A model generated the notes under the pieces. That model did no database searches and had not been told where the DNA came from. It worked only from the letters and a program-made list of their open reading frames with translations. A DNA stretch of 26,848 nucleotides from the IMG/VR virus record IMGVR_UViG_3300032736_000302, positions 1 through 26,848 of that record; one strand, written 5' to 3'. Position 1 is the stretch's first letter; every line of letters starts with the position of its first letter. A program made the position numbers and the translations under genes. Source of the DNA: a virus. Below are positions 8,928 to 19,165 of the stretch, piece by piece.

Positions 8928-9344
8928 CTATTTCTTTGCTAATTTCCTGGCTTCCCGCGTCAGGCCTTGCGCCATGACCCGACCCATTTCATTTAACGCC
9001 TCGCCGGCCTTGTTGTCCATCGCCGGGCGCATGAACGGCTTCGCCGCTGCATTCTTGGTACCAAACTCGGTCAAATGAGCCCGGCCACTGGTTGGCTGCT
9101 TGAAGCCAATCAAAACCACGCGCTCGTTATCGTCTTTGTTTTTTCGTTCCGTCTCCGTGACAATAGAGTCACGCAAATCACCAGAATCCTTCGGCACCAA
9201 TCGCTTGGCTTCCGCAACGATGACCTTGGCGCCGGCGCGCAACGACTGATCACCAACCCTAGACGCAACATTCGGGCCCAGCGCCTTCAAGACGCGCTCC
9301 ATGTCGGCAGCGCCTTTGATGTCAAAGTCAATGATGCCGGCCAT
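8928..9344 (-). CDS. HK97 gp10-like tail completion protein
   Basis: The 138-aa sequence matches the HK97-gp10-like family: SLRAGAKVIVAEAKRLVPKD, SGDLRDSIVTE, AHLTEFGTKNAAAKPFMRPA. These proteins take part in tail completion or head-tail joining. Usually the gene lies between the head-tail adaptor and the DUF3168 gene. Here it sits after the gpGT reading frame and before the tape measure. Its ATG overlaps the gpT-frame stop (TAATG), so it is likely coupled to the frameshift product. Confidence 0.82.
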   Translation of the reverse strand: MAGIIDFDIKGAADMERVLKALGPNVASRVGDQSLRAGAKVIVAEAKRLVPKDSGDLRDSIVTETERKNKDDNERVVLIGFKQPTSGRAHLTEFGTKNAAAKPFMRPAMDNKAGEALNEMGRVMAQGLTREARKLAKK

Positions 9345-9697
9345 TAGGGCTTTACTTTCTCCGCCGTTTTTATGCGCCCGGCAAACATACCTCGAAATTC
9401 GGCGCGTAGTGGTTTCGTGTTTATTTTAACGGATTTGGTTACGGCTTCATAATCCGGGATGAAATCTCTGGCGAGAATGGGCTTGCCGCTCTTCTTCCGC
9501 ATGGGCGAGGAATTGACGACGGCCGAGGCGATCGTTCCGGCCCTGTGCCAATCGACGTCATTGCCCCACGGCTCGACATCGTAGAACGCCGCCCATTCTT
9601 GAAGTTGCCAATCAGTCAGGGAACTTTCAAGAAGATCGACATCCAATAAGCCGAGAGCCAGCGCCAGCCGATATAAGAACCGGCGCCGGCGACTCAG
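9344..9697 (-). CDS. gpT-like extension of tail assembly chaperone gpGT, reached by -1 frameshift
   Basis: The frame has no good start of its own; the only candidate is a TTG at 9646 without a clear ribosome site. Read from the slippery site it continues gpG in the -1 frame as LSRRRRFLYRLALALGLLDV, then DLLESSLTDWQLQEWAAFYD and VEPWG. This is the pattern of lambda gpT and related chaperone extensions (Arg-rich linker, then EWxAFYxxEPxG). Joined to gpG codons 1-124 it gives a 241-aa gpGT. In lambda, the gpG to gpGT ratio controls coating of the tape measure before tube assembly. The next gene overlaps its stop. Confidence 0.85.
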   Translation of the reverse strand: MSRRRRFLYRLALALGLLDVDLLESSLTDWQLQEWAAFYDVEPWGNDVDWHRAGTIASAVVNSSPMRKKSGKPILARDFIPDYEAVTKSVKINTKPLRAEFRGMFAGRIKTAEKVKP

Positions 9698-9703
9698 TTT
9701 CCC
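9657..9703 (-). promoter_or_regulatory. Programmed -1 ribosomal frameshift signal of gpG/gpGT
   Basis: On the minus strand the end of gpG reads CGG GGA AAC TGA. The heptamer G GGA AAC (9697-9703) is a canonical X XXY YYZ slippery site in the gpG frame, directly followed by the gpG stop. After a 6-base spacer (TGAGTC), bases 9690-9680 (GCCGGCGCCGG) can pair with 9667-9657 (CTGGCGCTGGC). This forms an 11-bp stem with two G-U pairs around a 12-base loop. Heptamer, spacer and stem together match known dsDNA-phage tail chaperone frameshift signals. Bases 9658-9709 recur exactly at 14780-14831. Confidence 0.88.
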
Positions 9704-9709
9704 CGTGGT
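9658..9709 (-). repeat. 52-bp direct repeat, copy 1 (gpG/gpGT frameshift element)
   Basis: Bases 9658-9709 are identical to 14780-14831, in the same orientation and 5122 bases apart. The repeat covers the last four codons of gpG, the slippery heptamer, the spacer and all but the final base of the stem-loop. It is functional sequence here, so this is probably the donor copy. Confidence 0.95.
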
Positions 9710-10068
9710 TCCGCCATCCCGTTAACCCGCAGCGCCGCAGTTTGTAGCGGGTTATATACGAACGCGGGCCGAGCCCTCAATTCCTGCTCAGACCCAGGCG
9801 GCACCAAACGCTGGCCGGCCGCATCGACGACGGATGCCGCGGTGACATGCAAAACCAAGGCATCTTCGTCAAAGGCATCTTCGTCGGTTGCCTTCTTGCC
9901 TTCGTGAAGGCAGCTTTGCGTTATCGCCTGCAGGGCCGCCGCCGATAGGGGCTTAACGAAAACATCCATATCAAGGCCATCGATCTTGACCAGCACCGAC
10001 TTACCAAGGGCGAGAGTCTTGGTCAGGAAATCGGCCTTTTTAGCCTTGTCGATTTTCTTCGAAGTCAT
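9694..10068 (-). CDS. Tail assembly chaperone gpG-like
   Basis: This 124-aa protein starts with ATG 6 bases after AGGA. It lies between the tail tube gene and the tape measure, where tail chaperones are found. Its sequence resembles the gpG/TAC family (KIDGLDMDVFVKPLSAAALQ, then an acidic stretch and LRARPAFVYNPLQTAALRVN). A fraction of ribosomes should slip at the last codons to make gpGT. In lambda, both forms bind the tape measure protein and recruit tail tube subunits; neither remains in the virion. Confidence 0.82.
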   Translation of the reverse strand: MTSKKIDKAKKADFLTKTLALGKSVLVKIDGLDMDVFVKPLSAAALQAITQSCLHEGKKATDEDAFDEDALVLHVTAASVVDAAGQRLVPPGSEQELRARPAFVYNPLQTAALRVNGMAEPRGN

Positions 10069-10082
10069 CGTAGATCCTTTTT

Positions 10083-10499
10083 TTAGGCGAAGGTCAGATC
10101 GCCGGTTGGTTTCAGCGTCACGGACAACATCAAGACGCTATCAATCTCAATTTCGTTAACTTCCCATCTGGTCACCAGGGCCGAGAAAGTCACCGTCTGG
10201 GCCGGCGAGTCCGTGAAGGTGACCCGATAGGTCCGAGAAGTTTCCGCGTTGATGTCGGTGCGGAGCGCCGCATGGCCGGCGTTGTCGGGATCATATTGCA
10301 TGATCAGTTCAATTTCCGAGCCGTCCTTGATCGCCTTTTTATATTCGCGCGCGGCCGAAGCCAGATTGGTGACGTCGATCAAGCCGCGAGATTGGCCAAC
10401 CGCGCCGATTGTCTTAATCTGGGCGATCGCCGTATAGGTCAAAGGAGAGTCGGCATTGTCCCGCGCAAAGACCGTGCCGTCTGCTACATAGGTGGTCAT
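10083..10499 (-). CDS. Major tail tube protein
   Basis: The 138-aa protein has an ATG 7 bases after GGAG. Its beta-rich sequence includes IKTIGAVGQSRGLIDVTNLA, AIKDGSEIELIMQYDPDNAG and TVTFSALVTRWEVNEIEIDS. These match the pattern of short lambda gpV-type and HK97-type tail tube proteins. It lies directly before the gpG/gpGT pair, the normal place for a tube gene. It is short for the family and lacks the extra Ig-like domain of lambda gpV. The spacer upstream (10500-10591) holds only a short GC hairpin. Confidence 0.85.
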   Translation of the reverse strand: MTTYVADGTVFARDNADSPLTYTAIAQIKTIGAVGQSRGLIDVTNLASAAREYKKAIKDGSEIELIMQYDPDNAGHAALRTDINAETSRTYRVTFTDSPAQTVTFSALVTRWEVNEIEIDSVLMLSVTLKPTGDLTFA

Positions 10500-10591
10500 G
10501 TGTGAACTCCGTCCATGGATTAGGCGCCATTACGACGCTGCCGCGCGGCTGCCCAAACCGCAAAAAGGGCCACCGCCGTAGGGCGGAGTTG

Positions 10592-10858
10592 TTATTTCTC
10601 TTCCGTCCGAATCTTGCCGCTTTTCTTGTTCTTAAACTTTCGCACATTCCTGTCACTCAATTGAGTAACCTCCACTTCGTCATCGGCATCGGGTGCGTCG
10701 TCCGGTTCTGGCGCGACCGTATCGGGATCCCTTATGAAGCCATGTTCGCCCTCTTCCGTCACGCGGAAAATGTTCGCATCGCCAAGCCCGGATATTTCAA
10801 GTGCGTGGTGCCCGTCCCTGGCGCGGATCAAATGCTGGCCGACAACGTAAATAGCCAT
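10592..10858 (-). CDS. Small acidic phage protein, unknown
   Basis: The 88-aa frame starts with ATG 3 bases after AGGTGA. The first 40 residues look folded (MAIYVVGQHLIRARDGHHAL, then FRVTEEGEHGFIRDPD). The middle is strongly acidic and probably disordered (PEPDDAPDADDEVEV), and the end is basic and Lys-rich (RKFKNKKSGKIRTEEK). It lies between the DUF3168 tail terminator and the tail tube gene. No family is recognised. A head-tail or tube-related role is possible only from position. Confidence 0.55.
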   Translation of the reverse strand: MAIYVVGQHLIRARDGHHALEISGLGDANIFRVTEEGEHGFIRDPDTVAPEPDDAPDADDEVEVTQLSDRNVRKFKNKKSGKIRTEEK

Positions 10859-10865
10859 ATCTCAC

Positions 10866-11255
10866 CTATTCAGTGTGATTGATAATATAATCCTGGATGA
10901 CGCGATAGGCGAGAATTCCGTCTTCGTAGTCATCCCGTTCGTTGTCCAGTTTGATGGAAGCCTTGATTGCGGTCAAGGTTCCCGTAAATCCGCCCAGGGA
11001 AGATCGGACCGCATCTGCCAAATTCTTCGCCGCCAAGGGGGTTGCCGCCCAGCTATCGATTTGAAACCTGGCGTGCGCCCGGCCGGATGCTCCGCCCAAA
11101 TGATGTAACCGCGGGCCCGATACTTTGAAATAGACAATTGCCGGCAAAACAACATCTTGCGGAAGCTGGACCGGATAAACCTTGGCCGAAACCAGGGCCG
11201 ATATTCCGGCATCATTGGTCAGCCGTGTGTAAAGTTCGGAGTCAATCGACATCAT
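10866..11255 (-). CDS. Tail terminator/completion protein (DUF3168)
   Basis: The 129-aa protein follows the DUF3168 pattern: an N-terminal SELYTRLTNDAGISALVSAK, then VYPVQLPQDVVLPAIVYFKV, RFQIDSWAATPLAAKNLADA, and a C-terminal YRVIQDYIINH strand. DUF3168 proteins are structurally related to lambda gpU-type tail terminators, which cap the tube and join it to the head. It overlaps the head-tail adaptor stop by ATGA. There is a second in-frame ATG one codon later. Confidence 0.85.
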   Translation of the reverse strand: MMSIDSELYTRLTNDAGISALVSAKVYPVQLPQDVVLPAIVYFKVSGPRLHHLGGASGRAHARFQIDSWAATPLAAKNLADAVRSSLGGFTGTLTAIKASIKLDNERDDYEDGILAYRVIQDYIINHTE

Positions 11256-11569
11256 GTCACCTGCGCCGTGCCGAGGATTTTCAATCCTTCCCGCCGGCCG
11301 ATTTCGCTTATTCGGGAAATATCATACAAATCCCCGTCTACGTCGACTTTCATTCGACGGGTTACATCGGTCCGATGCCAGATGCTAATTTCCTTTGTGT
11401 CCTTGGCAACGGTTCCGGGGATCCCGGTGTATTCGGTTCCCGCGGCCGGCCTCACCTTTGCCCAAACGATCGCGAGATCGGACCAGGTTTCTACTTCACC
11501 GCCAACCGCATCCCGGGCAACGGTCACTTGCCGAATGGTAACCAGCCTGTCCATCTCGCCGGCGCGCAT
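11252..11569 (-). CDS. Head-tail adaptor (SPP1 gp16 / Phage_H_T_join family)
   Basis: The start is taken as the ATG at 11569, which overlaps the upstream stop as TGATG and gives 105 aa. The N-terminus MRAGEMDRLVTIRQVTVARD is the characteristic beginning of this family. EVETWSDLAIVWAKVRPAAG and the C-terminal LYDISRISEIGRREGLKILG also fit. These small beta-barrel proteins form the stopper ring below the head-tail connector. A start upstream of 11569 would overlap the connector gene and adds no family-like residues. Confidence 0.85.
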   Translation of the reverse strand: MRAGEMDRLVTIRQVTVARDAVGGEVETWSDLAIVWAKVRPAAGTEYTGIPGTVAKDTKEISIWHRTDVTRRMKVDVDGDLYDISRISEIGRREGLKILGTAQVT

Positions 11570-12147
11570 CAGCCCATGTCCCAATTACGGTAGGGGAAGA
11601 TCAACGCCTTGGTGCCATTCGGCACGGATACGATCGTCGAGCCAATGACGGTATCCTCGCGGCGGCTATACATATCACCGATCAGGATCAACATGCCCTG
11701 GCGTATTTCATCCGGCACATCGTTCCAACTGCCCCCGAATCCGGCGATAAAGCGAACGGTCACCGCATTCATTTCGGCGCGCGTGCTGGGCCATGATTGG
11801 CCGTAGGCCGGGCGGATCCGGCCTGGCCAATCCCCCGTAGCGTCCACTTGATAAAGGCTGCTCAATAGGGTCTGGCTGACGCCGGCGGTGTCGGTATAGG
11901 TGATTGACGTCACGGATTGGAGTTTTGACATCGGCACGCGGATCTCAGCCGGAAAATAATCCATCACCAAATCCCACGTCTGGGTAATCAGCGCGCGGCC
12001 GGTAAAGGTTTCCACCCATCCGGTTGCAAGCGATATGAGTTGATCCAGATAGGCCAGTTCGCTATCTGCCGTGATATGCAAATGATCTTTGACTTGCTCC
12101 AATAGCAGGGGCCGGACGGTGGGCTTGGTGACTATGGCCAAACTCAT
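11569..12147 (-). CDS. Head-tail connector (HK97 gp6-like)
   Basis: The 192-aa protein shows the gp6-like pattern: VRPLLLEQVKDHLHITADSE, LDQLISLATGWVETFTGRAL, then a tryptophan-containing strand and a C-terminal helix, DEIRQGMLILIGDMYSRRED. In HK97 this protein forms a ring beneath the portal. The gene is longer than the shortest family members because of a beta-rich insert typical of the variant with the phrase VTVRFIAGFG. It overlaps the adaptor gene by one base and the fibre-like gene upstream by one base. Confidence 0.88.
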   Translation of the reverse strand: MSLAIVTKPTVRPLLLEQVKDHLHITADSELAYLDQLISLATGWVETFTGRALITQTWDLVMDYFPAEIRVPMSKLQSVTSITYTDTAGVSQTLLSSLYQVDATGDWPGRIRPAYGQSWPSTRAEMNAVTVRFIAGFGGSWNDVPDEIRQGMLILIGDMYSRREDTVIGSTIVSVPNGTKALIFPYRNWDMG

Positions 12148-12446
12148 TATCTATGCCCCCCTCGAATATAAATTGATCGATCGGCCGGCTGCCCGGTACT
12201 GGGTGTCATGGTGCATGTCAGCCGGTGATTGTCGCCCGCGGTCACGCCAGAAACCTTAATCGTCGCCAGAAGCGTTGTTTCCGAGGCGCCGGACAATAAT
12301 GGGGCGGACGGCGAGGCGCCATCGTTCGGCGTAATTGCCCACGCTACGGAACTGATTGTGACCCCCGACCCGATCGCTGCAAGATAGGTGGTCCAATCGA
12401 TGGTGTAATCCAGAGTATTGTCCGGATCGTGCAAGAGAACGGTCAT
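12147..12446 (-). CDS. Small Ig-like fibre-type phage protein
   Basis: The 99-aa protein reads as an all-beta domain: LHDPDNTLDYTIDWTTYLAA, then ISSVAWAITPNDG, TTLLATIKVSGVTAGDNHRL and a closing TMTPSTGQPADRSIYIR. This pattern (DYxxDWxxYL, xxSxxWxI, GxxxxDRSIxIR) is common in phages as a small protein near head-tail connector genes, usually named fibre or hypothetical. It ends where the connector starts (TAATG-type overlap) and its start overlaps the capsule-synthesis-like gene. It may be a surface decoration at the neck, but that is inference. Confidence 0.65.
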   Translation of the reverse strand: MTVLLHDPDNTLDYTIDWTTYLAAIGSGVTISSVAWAITPNDGASPSAPLLSGASETTLLATIKVSGVTAGDNHRLTCTMTPSTGQPADRSIYIRGGHR

Positions 12447-13246
12447 TTTAGAAACCTTCCCAGATGTTCCCAGGCCACGCCTGTCTGGACGTCATAAAGA
12501 TTCCACTGAGCATATGCCAGATTGCTTGCCCATTGCGAGCGGTCCGGCCGTATAGGATCTTGGGTTACGTCGTGCCGGGCAACATCCCACGCCATGGAGC
12601 CTTCGTCGAGAGCATACACCGGGACGCCAGCTAATGCAGCATCAACGCCAGAATTTGAATTGCAGGTGATGACGGCCGCGGCGCCGGCCAGGGCAGAGGA
12701 CAATTCACCAGATAGGCCAATGGCGCCATCCGGCGTTGGCGTGGAGCCGGCCATTGGATGGGCGCGAAACATGACCGGCATATCCAAGGCGCTGCAGGCC
12801 TCGATCGCAGCTTGATACCATCCCCGAATATCCAAATGCGCCACGGATTGATCACCGGGAACCTGGCCCATGAGCAATATATAATCTCCGCCATCTTTCC
12901 AGGGTTGCATCAAATCCGCAAAATTATCGGCGAATCGATCAGGCGGGGAGTTCTCATTGACAAAATCCGCGCGGCCATTTAGTCCGTTCCAGCCACAGCC
13001 GGACCACGATCGCCGATTGCCAATATATCCGCGCTCCATCACCAGCACATTGGCGACAGGGTTTGGGCGAAAGAGTTCCAGGCCAATCCGCCATCCCCAA
13101 CAAACCGCCACATCGCCGGCAAGATGTATCTCCATCTCGGTCAACCGTTCTACGTTGATGCCGTGACGCTTGATGCCTTGCGCCATTGCATCGAGCCAAA
13201 ATACTTGGTGTGGGTGCTGCCGTTGCGTCACGATCGAGATCATCAC
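12443..13246 (-). CDS. Capsule polysaccharide synthesis/GT-B-like protein
   Basis: This protein of about 267 aa begins with a Rossmann-like strand (ISIVTQRQHPHQVFWLDAMA). It contains AGDVAVCWGWRIGLELFRPN, then YILLMGQVPGDQSV and MFRAHPMAG. A GT-B-style nucleotide-sugar loop follows: VITCNSNSGVDAALAGVPVY. The last two blocks resemble capsule-synthesis (KpsC/KpsS) and CDP-glycerol-transferase-like enzymes, where the conserved His and the Ser-rich loop bind the donor. The donor here is unknown. The start may be GTG 13246 (AAGG 9 bases upstream) or the next codon, ATG 13243. It is the last enzyme of the accessory cassette before the structural genes resume. Confidence 0.7.
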   Translation of the reverse strand: MMISIVTQRQHPHQVFWLDAMAQGIKRHGINVERLTEMEIHLAGDVAVCWGWRIGLELFRPNPVANVLVMERGYIGNRRSWSGCGWNGLNGRADFVNENSPPDRFADNFADLMQPWKDGGDYILLMGQVPGDQSVAHLDIRGWYQAAIEACSALDMPVMFRAHPMAGSTPTPDGAIGLSGELSSALAGAAAVITCNSNSGVDAALAGVPVYALDEGSMAWDVARHDVTQDPIRPDRSQWASNLAYAQWNLYDVQTGVAWEHLGRFLK

Positions 13247-13281
13247 TATGCCGGGCCTTCCGTGTTTATCGCCACAAGGCG

Positions 13282-13341
13282 TTATAAGCGGTTCTCAGGG
13301 GGATTTCCATAGAGGCACGCGACCGTGCCCCGGATCATCAT
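13282..13341 (-). other. Short untranslated spacer with a 19-codon open frame
   Basis: The 134 bases between the methyltransferase and the capsule-synthesis-like gene contain only a 19-codon frame with an in-frame double ATG (MMIRGTVACLYGNPPENRL), ended by TAA. No good ribosome site is seen. The peptide has a folded-protein look, and the adjacent frame is open into the next gene apart from one TGA, so it may be a remnant of an older, longer N-terminus. Confidence 0.2.
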
Positions 13342-13380
13342 TTGGCCGGCCGTGCGCGCCAGCGGCAAGTCTGGGGCTAC

Positions 13381-13965
13381 CTATCGGCATTCGACCACGA
13401 TTGTCCTGCCGTTCACGTCGGGTTCAACCGGCGAACTTCCGCCTACCTGGCCATACCATTGCTCTGGGGTCCAGCCGCAGCGGAGCAAAAGGGCGCGAAA
13501 ATCATCCTTGGTGTAATGCCGGTGATGGACCGGCGCCAGGCGCGGTTGCCACGCCCAGACATCTTCGTTGGGCACGCTGGCCAGCAACGTATGGGCAAAG
13601 GTACGGGCCTGCCTTAGAAACAACTCGGGATTGGCCAAATGCTCGATGACCTCGAAGGCAACGACGGTATGGGAATAAAGTGGCACCGCGCCAAGATCTC
13701 TTAAGTCACCCAAAGTGTATTTGATGTTCGGGCGGTCATAGTGTTCCGATGCCCATTCCAGGCCCTCGCGCCAGCAATCGATGCCCTCCACCATAAATCC
13801 TGCATCGGCCAAAATAGCGGTGCCGTAGCCGCTATTGCAGCCAGCATCCAAGACAAGGCCCTTGGCCCGCGTGGCTGCCCACTGGTACCGGCCAACATGA
13901 TCCCCGCGCACGTCTTTAACCGTGCCGTCTGGGCTCAATCTCGCGTTTATCCAAGGATCGATCAT
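13381..13965 (-). CDS. Class I SAM-dependent methyltransferase
   Basis: The start is the ATG at 13965, which overlaps the upstream stop (ATGA) and has AAGGA 7 bases before it, giving 194 aa. Motif I is clear at residues 38-48 (VLDAGCNSGYG). It is followed by an acidic residue at the end of strand 2 (VEGID, 59-63), a motif II-like GDLRDL near 87-92 and the EVIEHL motif at 105-110. These are hallmarks of Methyltransf_11/23-type small-molecule methylases, which often modify sugars or lipids. In this cassette a glycan substrate is the likely one, but nothing in the sequence fixes it. The 17-residue extension to 14001 is probably not used. Confidence 0.88.
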   Translation of the reverse strand: MIDPWINARLSPDGTVKDVRGDHVGRYQWAATRAKGLVLDAGCNSGYGTAILADAGFMVEGIDCWREGLEWASEHYDRPNIKYTLGDLRDLGAVPLYSHTVVAFEVIEHLANPELFLRQARTFAHTLLASVPNEDVWAWQPRLAPVHHRHYTKDDFRALLLRCGWTPEQWYGQVGGSSPVEPDVNGRTIVVECR

Positions 13966-14660
13966 CGCCAGTTCCTTTTTACCCAGTCGACCGCCTGGCA
14001 CTTCGCCATGGCGGGACTACTGCGCCCATTGAAAAATACGACCCTGGCGCTTTCCGGAAGGCCTGTATGCTGGATCGGCGTGAAGCTTTCGATGCCGGCG
14101 TTAAATTTAGGCCAGGACGCGCCCTCATTGTCGAGGATATACGAAACCCAGCCCTGATCGCCGCGCTCGAATCCGGCATCCTCGGCTTCTTGTGGCCCGG
14201 TGTTCGGATCAAATCGGTTCCACACCTCTGGAAAGGCGCCGCCATCCATCAAGACAAATGAGGTGTTAAACCGGGCTTTCCTATCGGCGGGAATCTTGTT
14301 CGTTTCCCATGCCGTAAATGGCGCGTCGGTATCGAGAAGCGGCGCGATGTCGTCGACGATAACAACGTCTAGGTCCATCATCAAAATCCGCTCGCCAAAC
14401 CTTTTCCCGGCTTCTGGTTGAAACGCGAAAAGTTTCGGATAATAGGTGCCCATTTCTTTCACCGATCCAGGCATTGTCACCACCCGAACGGCGGGGATTA
14501 TGCCTTGCGGATTGTCCGTCACGCAGACCAGTTCGTGCGGGATGCTCAAATGACGCTTCAACATGCTATGGAGATTGTTGACGTAGTGGTGATCATATCG
14601 ATAGTAGGGGTTGTTCCGGAAATCCGGATTCCACCATTTGAAGCATAAAACGGTGAGCAT
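13962..14660 (-). CDS. DXD-type glycosyltransferase (GT-A fold, GT8-like)
   Basis: Starting at ATG 14660 gives 232 aa. A metal-binding DLD motif lies at residues 96-98 inside RILMMDLDVVIVDDIAPLLD, followed by FNTSFVLMDGGAF and, late in the sequence, VVFFNGRSSP. The last motif stands where GT8-like enzymes have a conserved HFxGxxKP. The enzyme should move a sugar from a nucleotide donor to an unknown acceptor. The start at 14660 overlaps the stop of the disrupted small gene (TGATG) and has GGAGG 10 bases upstream, so it is preferred over the ATG at 14696. Confidence 0.82.
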   Translation of the reverse strand: MLTVLCFKWWNPDFRNNPYYRYDHHYVNNLHSMLKRHLSIPHELVCVTDNPQGIIPAVRVVTMPGSVKEMGTYYPKLFAFQPEAGKRFGERILMMDLDVVIVDDIAPLLDTDAPFTAWETNKIPADRKARFNTSFVLMDGGAFPEVWNRFDPNTGPQEAEDAGFERGDQGWVSYILDNEGASWPKFNAGIESFTPIQHTGLPESARVVFFNGRSSPAMAKCQAVDWVKRNWR

Positions 14661-14933
14661 CAGAGAAGCACCTCCGCCCTTGGAATTCGCCAGCATTGGT
14701 GGCCATGCCTTTCCCAGCCCGGCAGCATTTCATCGATCACCGTAGCCACCGACGGATATTGCCAATCATGGCCGCAGATCCAGCGCCAGCCGATATAAGA
14801 ACCGGCGCCGGCGACTCAGTTTCCCCGTGGTCCAGCCAAATTCCTTAACCCAGCTTTCTAGCAGTTTCCAATGTGCGGTCTTGCGGCCTTCCTTAGTCGG
14901 CTCGTTGCGGCTGCGTGAATGATTTTCCATCAT
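14660..14933 (-). pseudogene. Small cassette gene split by a 52-bp duplication
   Basis: The gene begins at an ATG that overlaps the upstream stop (TGATG at 14933). It reads MMENHSRSRNEPTKEGRKTA, then HWKLLESWVKEFGW, then enters the repeat at 14831. The repeat contributes TTGKLSRRRRFLYRLAL, and the frame stops at 14766 after 55 codons. In a different frame, the bases after the repeat encode ICGHDWQYPSVATVIDEMLP, then GWERHGHQCWRIPRAEVLL, ending in a TGA that overlaps the next gene's ATG. Removing exactly 52 bases puts both halves in one 73-codon frame. The second half faintly resembles the C-terminal end of small methyltransferases. Function is unknown. It is probably inactive here, unless the 55-aa form has a role. 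Confidence 0.6.
14780..14831 (-). repeat. 52-bp direct repeat, copy 2 (ectopic frameshift element)
   Basis: This copy is identical to 9658-9709, in the same orientation. It contains GGGAAAC (14819-14825) and the stem-loop, with one terminal pair lost. Here the reading frame crosses it as GGG AAA CTG, so the heptamer is not in the phase needed for canonical slippage. The flanks differ from those of copy 1 except for short GC-rich matches. It splits the small gene at 14660-14933. Confidence 0.95.
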
Positions 14934-15490
14934 CAAATGACCTCCTTCTTTTTGCCGGCATCATAAATCTGCGTTGCAGGCTCATAGTCCCGCAAATCCT
15001 CGATATGGCGGTCTTTCCGGGCGGCCAGCCAGATCAACTCGCCGGGAACCCGCGTTGTCGACCATTGTTCGAGGATCGTGAATCCGTTTTTCGACACGAA
15101 AGCGCACATCGCCGGGGCGCTGGTAATGTGCAGCCCGTGGTTCTTGAAGCCGCTGACTGGCGAATGGGTCAGAAAACACCCGCCGACCTCGACAGCCCGG
15201 AGCGCGTTGGCCCAGGCATTGTGAGCATTCCAGACGTGCTCGATGGTTCCCATGTTGAACACCGTCCGGTGGGTTTGTGACAGCCCTATATCGGTATTGA
15301 GGTCAAGTTCCAGATCGCCGCCGTCGAGGTCCAGATCCTCGTATCCGTCTCCGACCCACTGGCCGAAATATTCATGCGCCGTTGGAAACGCCGGCAGGAC
15401 GCTGCCCGTCGCCCCCAGCATCAGCATGGCGGGTTTGTAATATTTAGCGAACCGCTCAAGAGGCGTCGTGTGCTCTGGGTGGATCGTCAT
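14933..15490 (-). CDS. Methyltransferase-like protein (class I SAM fold, degenerate motif I)
   Basis: The 185-aa protein has the middle and end of a Methyltransf_11-like fold: LDLDGGDLELDLNTDIGLSQ, then FNMGTIEHVWNAHNAWANAL and ALRAVEVGGCFLTHSPVSGF. The usual glycine-rich SAM loop near the N-terminus is weak (MLMLGATGSVLP replaces the ExGxGxG pattern). It may bind SAM poorly or act as a partner of the active methylase at 13381-13965. Its ATG overlaps the stop of the GT2-like gene (ATGA) and its stop overlaps the split small gene (TGATG), so it is embedded in a coupled cassette. Confidence 0.68.
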   Translation of the reverse strand: MTIHPEHTTPLERFAKYYKPAMLMLGATGSVLPAFPTAHEYFGQWVGDGYEDLDLDGGDLELDLNTDIGLSQTHRTVFNMGTIEHVWNAHNAWANALRAVEVGGCFLTHSPVSGFKNHGLHITSAPAMCAFVSKNGFTILEQWSTTRVPGELIWLAARKDRHIEDLRDYEPATQIYDAGKKKEVI

Positions 15491-16206
15491 AATAGATGCC
15501 TCACAGATGTTGGATATTCGCCGTCATAAAGCGCCAGAGGATGCCGGCGATCCGCGATGTTCTGGAAGTGTGGATGCTCTTTCCAGTCTTTCGGCCATTG
15601 GATTGTCGCGGCCTCGAAACTCTTCCTGGACCATTTTAAATGAACGAAGGCCGGCCGGTCTATCGTCGCCGTCGGATCCCCCGCATTCCTCAGGCTTTGC
15701 GTCATCGGGCCTTGCGCGTAGTGGGTCTGGCCGGCCAGGTAGACGCCATTGGTGGGGCACTTGGGGTGGCTGCCTATATGGGTCAAAGCATCGCCGACAA
15801 TATCGGTTCCCTCGAATTTGATCCTGTCGTGGCCAGCGGCCATCAGCTTCCGTATTTCAGCGCCGGCCCAGTCCATCATAACCATATCGCCGTCCAGCTT
15901 GACCAGATGCTTCCGCGTGGCCTTCGATTGGGTGAAGTTGTATAGCGCCGCGCTGGATCTCTTGTCCGTCGCCGGGATGTCGTCATGGCCCGGGCCCATC
16001 GGCCAGATATCATGCGGATAATCGAAGACCTTAACCTTCTCGCGGTGCACCATTTGGAAATTCAAGGCAATGTCCATGGTGGCATCCGTCGAAGCGTTGA
16101 CCACCACGATCAATTCATCACACCAGTCAACGAAGGATTCCAGGGCCAGGCGGCACCAAACTTCCTCGTTGCGGATCCGGACCAAGCCGGACAGGCCCTC
16201 ACGCAT
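15487..16206 (-). CDS. GT2-like glycosyltransferase
   Basis: The 239-aa protein begins with the GT2-like phrase LVRIRNEEVWCRLALESFVD. It continues with DELIVVVNASTDATMDIALN, the usual nucleotide-binding Asp region, and has the DXD-like motif DGD at residues 105-107 (HLVKLDGDMVMMDW). The C-terminal half is rich in His, Trp and Lys, and the acceptor cannot be read from it. It overlaps the pyruvyl-transferase-like gene by 8 bases and the methyltransferase-like gene by 4. A sugar transfer to glycan or protein is likely. Confidence 0.8.
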   Translation of the reverse strand: MREGLSGLVRIRNEEVWCRLALESFVDWCDELIVVVNASTDATMDIALNFQMVHREKVKVFDYPHDIWPMGPGHDDIPATDKRSSAALYNFTQSKATRKHLVKLDGDMVMMDWAGAEIRKLMAAGHDRIKFEGTDIVGDALTHIGSHPKCPTNGVYLAGQTHYAQGPMTQSLRNAGDPTATIDRPAFVHLKWSRKSFEAATIQWPKDWKEHPHFQNIADRRHPLALYDGEYPTSVRHLL

Positions 16207-16939
16207 TGATCAACTCCATAACCCGCTCATAAAACGACCAATTCTGGGCCCGGCAATCGGCAAGCGCATTGGGGTGTTGCTTCACCCAGCCCGCAACGCC
16301 CCGCCAATCGTTCGCGTTCGCGATCATGGCGGCCGGGAATTTCTGACGCCAGAACTTCGAACTATAGGGCTGGAATATAACCCGCTTGCCCAGCAATGTT
16401 GCCCAGTACATCCCGTGAAAAGAATTGGTGACTACCGTTTCGGCCGAACCAAGAAACATTATAGTGTCTTCGAATGATTCGGTGTTCTCCATCGTCGGCA
16501 GATCATTCGCTCCCAACGGATACCGGCTTTTGATCTGGGGAGATGCGTTCATAAACCGCACGGCCTCATGCTTCACATAATATTTCAAATTAAACAAAGG
16601 CGACATGCAGGACGCGCAGGGCACATATTTTCCCGTTACTTCCCGGTCGAACGTCCATTCCCTGGTACCGATCATATCGAAACCCTCGGGATCCGGTGAC
16701 GGCTCCGTCTCGCCGTGGTTTGTCGATCCGGTCCCCCACAGGATAGCCTTGGCTCCCTTCGGCGCCCGGCCCTCGGCCCAGGACGTCAACGTCCCGCCGC
16801 CAAATATAACCGCATCGCAGGGCGGTATGGCTTCCTCGTAGTTTCCAACATGATGTTCCGGCCAGTCAAAATAGGCCGCCGGCGAACTGGCTAAATCACC
16901 GATGTTTCCGGTGTTGCGTATATTTCTGAATTGGATCAT
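16199..16939 (-). CDS. Polysaccharide pyruvyl transferase-like protein
   Basis: The 246-aa sequence shows the features of the polysaccharide pyruvyl transferase family: GNIGD at 11-15, FGGGTL at 46-51, GTRE at 91-94, a Cys pair (CASC) near 108-111, and TNSFHGMYWATLLGKR at 171-186. In well-studied members (CsaB, ExoV and relatives) the enzyme adds a pyruvate ketal from PEP to a sugar, changing its charge; some relatives act on other glycans. It is shorter than most bacterial members. The ATG follows GGAG by 6 bases. Its neighbours are sugar transferases, supporting a role in glycan tailoring. Confidence 0.82.
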   Translation of the reverse strand: MIQFRNIRNTGNIGDLASSPAAYFDWPEHHVGNYEEAIPPCDAVIFGGGTLTSWAEGRAPKGAKAILWGTGSTNHGETEPSPDPEGFDMIGTREWTFDREVTGKYVPCASCMSPLFNLKYYVKHEAVRFMNASPQIKSRYPLGANDLPTMENTESFEDTIMFLGSAETVVTNSFHGMYWATLLGKRVIFQPYSSKFWRQKFPAAMIANANDWRGVAGWVKQHPNALADCRAQNWSFYERVMELINA

Positions 16940-16988
16940 TTGTCGCTCCGTAGGGCAGGGGTTGAATTTACGTCCAGGTGGACGCGGT

Positions 16989-17611
16989 TCAAATATTGCT
17001 TGTCATTAACTCCGCCAATGTAGCGGCCACATATCTCTGTTTTTCGAAGCTGTAATCGGCGAGAAGGTCGACCGCGGAATGAATGTTTTTTTCTCGGTAT
17101 CGATGCGCGCGATGCCCTGATTGAGATCGTTGATCTTGGATGCGAGAATATTTTCGAGAATATTTGGCTTACCTTCGACGACGGTAAATCGCCCCAGAAG
17201 CTTTGCCAGTACGTCCCGCGTCCCCTCCAATAAGGGAACTTGGGAATCACAATGCTGCAGGCGACCGGACAAGGCCTGGCACATAATCAAAATCATGTCC
17301 TGGCGGATCGGTTCGGCGCACTTGTCGAGAACTTGTCCCATCGCGTTGTCAAAAGCCCAGTCGACCATCGCCAATATCTTGGCGTCGGTATTGTCCGGAT
17401 CGGTGGTGCCGGCGTTACCGGTCTGGTCATACTGGGCGCGGCGTTCCGGATCCATCAAAACCTTATAGGCAAAGTGGATGCGCTCAAATTTATCGGCATC
17501 GCCGTCGTGGTCGGGATGGTGTTCTTGGGCCAGTCGATAGAAAGCTTTTTTGATGGTGGCGGCATCTGCCGAGATATCGACGTCTAGGACATCATAGAGA
17601 TTAGGGATCAC
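16989..17611 (-). CDS. J-domain cochaperone (DnaJ-like) with a frameshift near the 3' end
   Basis: The preferred start is GTG at 17611, 6 bases after GAGG, rather than GTG at 17623. The J domain fills residues 5-65, with the diagnostic HPD at 32-34 (EHHPDHDGDADKFERIHFAY). This should stimulate the host DnaK ATPase. The rest is a helical region with CAEPIRQDMILIMCQ and VEGKPNILENILASKIND. After a run of seven A residues at 17092-17086, the zero frame turns to low-complexity residues and stops at 17006. The -1 frame instead gives NIHSAVDLLADYSFEKQRYV, then AATLAELMTSNI, ending at 16989. That frame looks like the genuine C-terminus. The annotated span assumes one extra base; the product would be about 207 aa. 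Confidence 0.82.
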
Positions 17612-17674
17612 CGAAAACCTCACTCAAATTCATGGTAGGGAAGCAATCAATAGCACTTTGTGGTATGCTTCTCT

Positions 17675-18520
17675 ATGCCAAAAAAATTAAATCTCGTTGG
17701 TCTTCGTGTTGGACGCATAACTGTTGTCGAGCGTATAGGAAGCGTGCGCCACAATGGGCGGTCAAATGTTACTTGGCAGTGCATCTGTGATTGTGGCATG
17801 GCAGTTATCCTTACCAGCAATACGCTAAGACATGGCGGCACGCGGAGTTGTGGATGCCTTAAGCGCGAAAACGCTGCACATTTAGCAAAAATGCACCCGC
17901 TACAGTCCACGGCCCGTGATTTGACGGGGCAAAAATTCGGACTTTTAACGGCGCAATCGCCCACAAAGGAACGGCGTCGAAAAAGTGTTGTCTGGGACTG
18001 CCTGTGCTCCTGCGGCAACCGTCATTTGGTCGCCGCCACCGGCCTGTTGACGGGTGATACCAAAAGCTGCGGCTGCACCAAAGGCGTGGCATCAATTACT
18101 CACGGAGCGACACGGCATGGCGAATGGACGCGCGAATACACAGTTTGGGCGGCAATGTTGCAGCGGTGTTCTAACCCAAATAACACCGCCTTCGATCGAT
18201 ACGGCGGGCGTGGAATAACCGTCTGTGATCGATGGAAGTCTTTTGAGAATTTCTTTTCAGACATGGGGCCACGGCCGGCGAATATGAGCATTGATCGAAT
18301 CGACAACAACAAGGGGTATGAGCCCAACAACTGTCGATGGGCTACCGAAACTGAGCAACAGCGCAATAAAACAAGCAGTAGACTGCTGACGTGGGATGGC
18401 CAGACGCTCTGTGTCTCCGAATGGGCAGAATTATTAGGTGTCCCCAGCCGACGAATAATCAGTCGGCTGGCCCGAGGCTGGGATGTGGAACGCGCCCTAA
18501 CATTTCCGTTACAGAATTGA
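17675..18520 (+). CDS. HNH/homing-endonuclease-like protein with two zinc-ribbon units
   Basis: This is the only plus-strand gene recognised. The start is the ATG at 17675 (281 aa), preferred because family members begin near LVGLRVGRITVVER; a GTG at 17660 is also open and neither has a strong ribosome site. It has two zinc-ribbon units, each a CxCxCG and a later SCGC (WQCICDCG...SCGC and WDCLCSCG...SCGC). A nuclease-like domain follows: YGGRGITVCDRW, SIDRIDNNKGYEPNNCRWAT, ETEQQRNK. The C-terminal block SEWAELLGVPSRRIISRLAR with GWDVERAL resembles a DNA-binding repeat. Such genes occur as free-standing elements in phages. Its 3' end overlaps the convergent DUF115-like gene by 12 bases. Confidence 0.8.
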   Translation: MPKKLNLVGLRVGRITVVERIGSVRHNGRSNVTWQCICDCGMAVILTSNTLRHGGTRSCGCLKRENAAHLAKMHPLQSTARDLTGQKFGLLTAQSPTKERRRKSVVWDCLCSCGNRHLVAATGLLTGDTKSCGCTKGVASITHGATRHGEWTREYTVWAAMLQRCSNPNNTAFDRYGGRGITVCDRWKSFENFFSDMGPRPANMSIDRIDNNKGYEPNNCRWATETEQQRNKTSSRLLTWDGQTLCVSEWAELLGVPSRRIISRLARGWDVERALTFPLQN

Positions 18521-19165
18521 GGGCAATGGCGCCCAAGGAAAGCATTTCAGCACAGAGTTTGGCGTCGCGTTAAAAATTTCAACTCCCCGTTCCGCCAACG
18601 GTTCAATCAATGTTGGAAAATATGGCAGCATCGTTCCGGAGTAATCCGACCGAATTCTGTCAGGGTGATCGCCAAACCAATGGGCGCGTCCAGGCTCGTC
18701 TTCGTGGGTGATGTCGTGCATATCAAACCCAACCAGGACCACGCGCCTGGCGCCCGCCTTCACGGCAATCTGGATGGCCTGATAGCCGCCGTTTCCGCCA
18801 CCGGCGACGGTATCCGGTTCCTCTGGAAAACCGCCGCTATACCCGGATTGCTTATCCAGCTGGACCCGAAGAAACTTTGCCCAGGCTTCCGGTACCGTCT
18901 CCGTGCACGTCGTTCGAATGCCGGGAAATTTCGTTACCGTCTCGCGATGCCACATCCACCATTTAATATCGCAGCCGTGCAGCCAGTCGGCCCACCACGC
19001 TCCATAAATCGCATCGTTGACCGCAATCACTCGGCATTTATTTTCCAGCGTCGCCCGGGCAATTAACCGGTTTTGCGCCAGATCAAAAGACGGACCTCCG
19101 CCAATGATTACGGCCGTGGGCCCATCCGGCCACAAGAGCGGGACGGGCCAGGAATCGCGACTCAT
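18509..19165 (-). CDS. MptE/DUF115-like protein (possible glycosyltransferase-type)
   Basis: The 218-aa protein begins with a glycine-rich nucleotide loop (AVIIGGGPSFDLA, residues 19-31), then RVIAVNDAIYGAWWADWLHG. Later it has GGNGGYQAIQIAVKAGARRV and VLVGFDMHD. These match the phage branch of the DUF115/MptE-like family. Bacterial relatives include Maf proteins that attach nonulosonic acids to flagellin and enzymes of pterin synthesis; the substrate of the phage branch is not established. The start overlaps the stop of the upstream gene (ATGA). Its 3' end overlaps the plus-strand endonuclease-like gene. Confidence 0.72.
   Translation of the reverse strand: MSRDSWPVPLLWPDGPTAVIIGGGPSFDLAQNRLIARATLENKCRVIAVNDAIYGAWWADWLHGCDIKWWMWHRETVTKFPGIRTTCTETVPEAWAKFLRVQLDKQSGYSGGFPEEPDTVAGGGNGGYQAIQIAVKAGARRVVLVGFDMHDITHEDEPGRAHWFGDHPDRIRSDYSGTMLPYFPTLIEPLAERGVEIFNATPNSVLKCFPWAPLPSIL

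Follow-up and report, generated by a model that had tools for sequence, protein, structure and literature searches.

Introduction

Programmed −1 frameshifting in the expression of the tail assembly chaperones gpG and gpGT is widespread; for the haloarchaeal virus HCTV-1, the heptamer listed for g-t expression is G_GGA_AAC (PMC5009743). Illegitimate recombination contributes to phage mosaicism; RecET is able to join sequences sharing only 5–13 bp, and phage annealing proteins accept short or diverged homology (PMC2327257). Among bacterial processes, the closest description is SPDIR (Harms et al., 2016, as cited in PMC7192050).

Here, we describe a locus at which a segment of a gpG/gpGT frameshift site recurs in a broken methyltransferase gene. 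The stretch analyzed (the window) is a metagenomic viral contig of 26,848 bases (IMGVR_UViG_3300032736_000302) that contains no N. Its genome type is siphophage-like, with terminase, portal, HK97-type head, and lambda-type tail genes, and nearly all genes are carried on the minus strand. Where the segment recurs, it is very likely a templated-insertion scar that arose while phage DNA was being replicated or a break repaired, either through a template switch guided by microhomology or through the capture of a short single strand.

Results

Self-comparison of the window revealed two segments identical over 52 bp (copies 1 and 2), which lie in the same orientation ~5.1 kb apart and are both read on the minus strand (Table 1). 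The runner-up among exact repeats elsewhere in the window was 18 bp long, and the longest repeat in 30 first-order Markov simulations averaged 14.5 bp and reached at most 17 bp. The exact direct repeat of the original prediction is thus real, and its length is far above chance expectation.

Table 1. Coordinates of the repeat copies, the genes that carry them, and their neighbors in the window
Feature	Coordinates	Strand	Remarks
Repeat copy 1 (donor)	9658..9709	−	Predicted −1 frameshift site G_GGA_AAC, spacer, and nearly the whole gpG/gpGT hairpin
gpG-like tail assembly chaperone ORF	9694..10068	−	phrog_344
gpT extension in the −1 frame	9344..9697	−	Phage_tail_T (Pfam), phrog_337
Repeat copy 2 (patch in the broken methyltransferase gene)	14780..14831	−	Up to 9 and 3 nt fit both genes
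Nucleotides necessarily derived from gpGT (40 nt)	14783..14822	−	Occupy the place of 342 nt in L004
Methyltransferase N-terminal remnant	14823..14930	−	36 residues; 74% identity to L004 over 34 residues
Methyltransferase C-terminal remnant	14663..14782	−	40 codons; 64% identity to L004 over 36 residues; frame differs from that of the N-terminal remnant
56-aa ORF (small gene of the original prediction)	14766..14936	−	N-terminal remnant running through the patch to a stop
Upstream neighbor MT1	14933..15490	−	Position same in L004 and L007
Downstream neighbor glycosyltransferase	13962..14696	−	phrog_1962; position same in L004 and L007

Copy 1 lies where the gpG-family ORF overlaps the gpT-family ORF in the −1 frame, with the slippery heptamer at the 3′ end of gpG. 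The gpG frame ends in CGG GGA AAC TGA, which places G_GGA_AAC in the slippery phase. On its 3′ side, the heptamer is followed by the 6-nt spacer TGAGTC and then by a stem-loop of 13 bp (−25.2 kcal/mol, z = −5.1), of which the repeat holds all but the last base. Both the frames and the folding bear out the anatomy given in the original prediction, namely heptamer, 6-nt spacer, and stem-loop. A distant relative (L007) retained GGGAAAC and RRRFLFRLALALG at the same position in gpG/gpGT, indicating that the repeat belongs to gpGT by descent; the RRRFLxRLALALG segment of gpT was likewise conserved in L007. On these alignments, copy 1 is the original and a predicted −1 frameshift site of gpG/gpGT, and the direction of transfer was from gpGT to the methyltransferase gene. 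The reverse transfer, from copy 2 to copy 1, was rejected because L007 conserves the gpT residues spanning copy 1 and because the flanks of copy 2 are part of a different gene. A sibling contig (L003), 99.76% identical to the window over 10,155 bp, contains copy 1 and ends before copy 2; its possession of gpGT, like the membership of the gpGT coding sequence in known tail families, speaks for gpGT as the donor.

The surroundings of copy 2 were compared with those in L004, a contig from another sample that carries the same cassette in the order of the window: glycosyltransferase, polysaccharide pyruvyl transferase, glycosyltransferase, MT1, glycosyltransferase, methyltransferase, and glycosyltransferase. 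This glycosyltransferase/methyltransferase/polysaccharide pyruvyl transferase cassette (window 12443–16939 and 18509–19165) is collinear in at least three phage lineages, those of the window, L004, and L007, flanked by the major capsid gene on one side and the head–tail connector genes on the other. Close relatives of the cassette were not found in bacterial genomes, GenBank phages, or plasmids, and searches with both neighboring proteins returned no sibling spanning copy 2. As a separate observation, window 16940–18520 holds a plus-strand HNH endonuclease gene (phrog_374, E = 7e-86) and a minus-strand gene for a DnaJ-domain protein between two cassette genes. Neither had a match in L004 or L007; because these contigs carry the flanking cassette genes without the pair, the segment looks like an insertion, possibly of a homing-type endonuclease.

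Between MT1 and the next glycosyltransferase, L004 encodes an intact methyltransferase of ~190 aa, with the Pfam domain Methyltransf_24 (PF13578) at residues 37–155 (61.9 bits; cut-off, 26.3). Residues 2–35 of this protein matched the window just upstream of the patch and residues 150–185 just downstream of it (E = 4e-13 and 1e-13, respectively). The middle 114 residues, which make up most of the Methyltransf_24 domain, matched nowhere in the window. The balance at the target was thus an exchange of 342 nt for 40 nt, and the repeat measures 52 rather than 40 bp because a further 9 and 3 nt are common to donor and target (9 + 40 + 3). As in templated insertions, the patch is identical to a segment located elsewhere in the same genome, and the donor is intact. 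A clean insertion would have kept or duplicated the target; here, 342 nt are missing relative to L004.

The original prediction placed copy 2 in a functional cassette gene. The ORF concerned, which contains SRRRRFLYRLALDLRP, does exist, but comparison with L004 identified it as the remnant of a methyltransferase gene that has lost 342 nt. The 56-aa remnant, from which most of the Methyltransf_24 domain is absent, gave no match against Pfam. A genuine gene family was considered for this ORF and rejected, since the viral contigs contained no relatives, PHROG and Pfam gave no match, and the methyltransferase remnant explains the ORF. The methyltransferase gene carrying copy 2 appears to be a pseudogene. 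The stop codon of its C-terminal remnant overlaps an ATG able to start the downstream glycosyltransferase, and given this overlap, the scar may affect translation of the latter. The repeat had also been proposed as a site at which the sequence between the copies could be lost. Such a deletion would indeed fuse the 56-aa reading frame in frame to gpT, as had been stated; it would also cost ~5.1 kb, with gpG, the connectors, and the tail tube protein among the losses, and would probably be lethal.

The reading frames also bear on the function of the transferred segment. In copy 2, the heptamer is read as ACG GGG AAA CTG, that is, already in the −1 phase, and a stop codon follows 17 codons after AAA. 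No upstream ORF reads it in the zero frame and then carries on in a −1 ORF. With the slippery site in the post-shift frame, no frameshift function was transferred. Copy 2, as its frames read, is not a frameshift element, and the proposal that such an element had been duplicated into a gene fails on the phase of the heptamer. The phase of the C-terminal remnant corresponds to the original gpG frame, which carries TGA. Rescue of the broken methyltransferase by frameshifting was accordingly rejected: a −1 shift enters the wrong frame, since the C-terminal remnant is in phase +1, and the core of the domain has been lost in any case.

Among the relatives, the methyltransferase slot occurs in three states: intact, scarred, and absent. 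It is empty in L007 (8001–9290) and L008 (455–1744), where MT1 is directly followed by the glycosyltransferase; with no gene in the slot of these two contigs, the methyltransferase appears dispensable. The complete absence of the gene from L007 and L008, together with the stepwise decay of phage accessory genes, would suit a history of two events, in which a simple deletion in the methyltransferase gene was followed by insertion of gpGT sequence at the scar by non-reciprocal recombination. We consider such a history unlikely, since the patch lies exactly at the deletion breakpoints, both remnants are otherwise undamaged, and one event is simpler.

The junctions were examined for sequence shared by donor and target. 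At one edge, 9 nt (ACCACGGGG) fit both genes, coding T-T-G versus T-A-G in L004; at the other, 3 nt (TGG) fit both, coding W versus F in L004. Judged from a single intact relative at ~60–75% identity, the shared sequence at the joints may amount to 3–9 nt and 0–3 nt. The segment had been taken for a precisely moved module, but its edges fall where donor and target share few bases, and this apparent precision is what two short pairing sites would give. In the outer flanks, the similarity between donor and target exceeded that of random pairs (P = 0.009 and 0.022, in a post hoc test devised after the alignment). The long upstream similarity between gpG and the flank of copy 2 was considered as an older, longer duplication. 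This reading was rejected because the L004 methyltransferase aligns with that flank; the similarity may represent homeology that aided pairing.

The same edges bear on structure-driven mobility, in which the frameshift hairpin would move to a new site as a unit after excision or copying. The patch stops one base short of the base of the hairpin, which is predicted to be stable as RNA and as single-stranded DNA. Against this mechanism, the other end of the patch lies outside the hairpin, at the shared 9-mer, 342 nt were lost at the target, and no further copies were present in the window, its relatives, or the viral contigs searched, where the sequence occurred only as copy 1 of the sibling, which leaves the mobile element originally suggested unsupported. 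We regard such mobility as exceedingly unlikely. A broader notion is extremely doubtful, namely that template switching preferentially draws on, or stalls at, the frameshift hairpins of phage genes, with repeated copying of these signals into further phage genes and, now and then, the origin of a new recoding site.

Copy 2 might also be absent from the phage DNA and reflect an assembly or library artifact, given that the contig is metagenomic and that copy 2 was seen in this contig alone. In addition, a single base within the repeat separates window copy 1 from that of L003, and there the window has the base of copy 2: position 9705 is C in the window and A in L003 (1548), a synonymous change in an Arg codon. 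This is one of 24 differences between the window and L003 and the sole one in the gpG/gpT coding region, with a chance expectation inside the repeat of ~0.12; as a sign of later exchange between the copies, it is no more than a hint. To create copy 2 falsely, however, an assembler would have to make two joins over no more than 9 and 3 shared bases, numbers far below the usual word sizes. The intact relative L004 contains none of the 16-mers of the patch, and the contig is free of N. A de Bruijn assembly join is an unlikely source of copy 2, and an artifact of any kind seems quite improbable.

Discussion

In the templated-insertion reading that we favor, an ancestor would have carried an intact class-I methyltransferase gene in the slot. 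As phage DNA was replicated or a break repaired, a strand with its end in this gene at ...TGGACCACGGGG would have annealed to gpG/gpGT at ACCACGGGG, 5.1 kb away, and would have been extended by ~40 nt through the frameshift hairpin before going back to the methyltransferase gene 342 nt further along, near TGGATCTGCGGC. Capture of a short gpGT single strand between the same two points would be an equivalent route. The outcome would be an intact donor and a target deprived of its catalytic core and reading frame. We infer these polymerase and annealing steps, as well as the coupling of loss and insertion in one event. Template switching, which headed the explanations listed in the original prediction, is among the leading options and is supported by the comparison with L004. 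Replication or recombination genes were not recognized in the window.

Copy 2 is another instance of a known DNA-copying error, ordinary in kind and unusually readable: a single phage genome, set beside its relatives, reveals the donor, the target, the direction, the lost segment, and the frames alike. It provides a concrete case in which phage accessory genes can die via microhomology-driven copying errors. It also illustrates that a perfect copy of a recoding signal at a new site need not act as a recoding signal there.

Comparison with known systems

SPDIR was reportedly described in naturally transformable bacteria. The locus resembles SPDIR in that a short intragenomic piece has taken the place of sequence at a site unrelated to it, the two joints share little sequence, and the donor locus is unchanged. 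It differs in that the genome is that of a phage and the 342 nt replaced far exceed the 40-nt patch. Because of this long replaced stretch, and because SPDIR is defined also by the replication, annealing, and nuclease genes on which it depends and the present case by its sequence, we do not file the patch under SPDIR.

Phage mosaicism by Red/RecT-like annealing (PMC2327257, PMC3945230) shares the tolerance of short or diverged homology and offers a plausible agent, although no recombinase gene was recognized on the contig; mosaicism usually involves larger segments exchanged between phages, whereas here a 40-nt patch moved within one genome. Templated insertions by MMBIR or polymerase theta (e.g., PMC8421209) are similar in that a short filler, copied from another site via microhomology, bridges a deletion; these pathways are eukaryotic, whereas copy 2 is known from a phage sequence. 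Finally, copy 1 corresponds to the lambda-type gpG/gpGT −1 programmed frameshift (PMC5009743) in its gpG, its gpT in the −1 frame, and its heptamer G_GGA_AAC, whereas copy 2 shares these letters but lacks an upstream gpG, is read in the post-shift frame, and leads to a stop codon.
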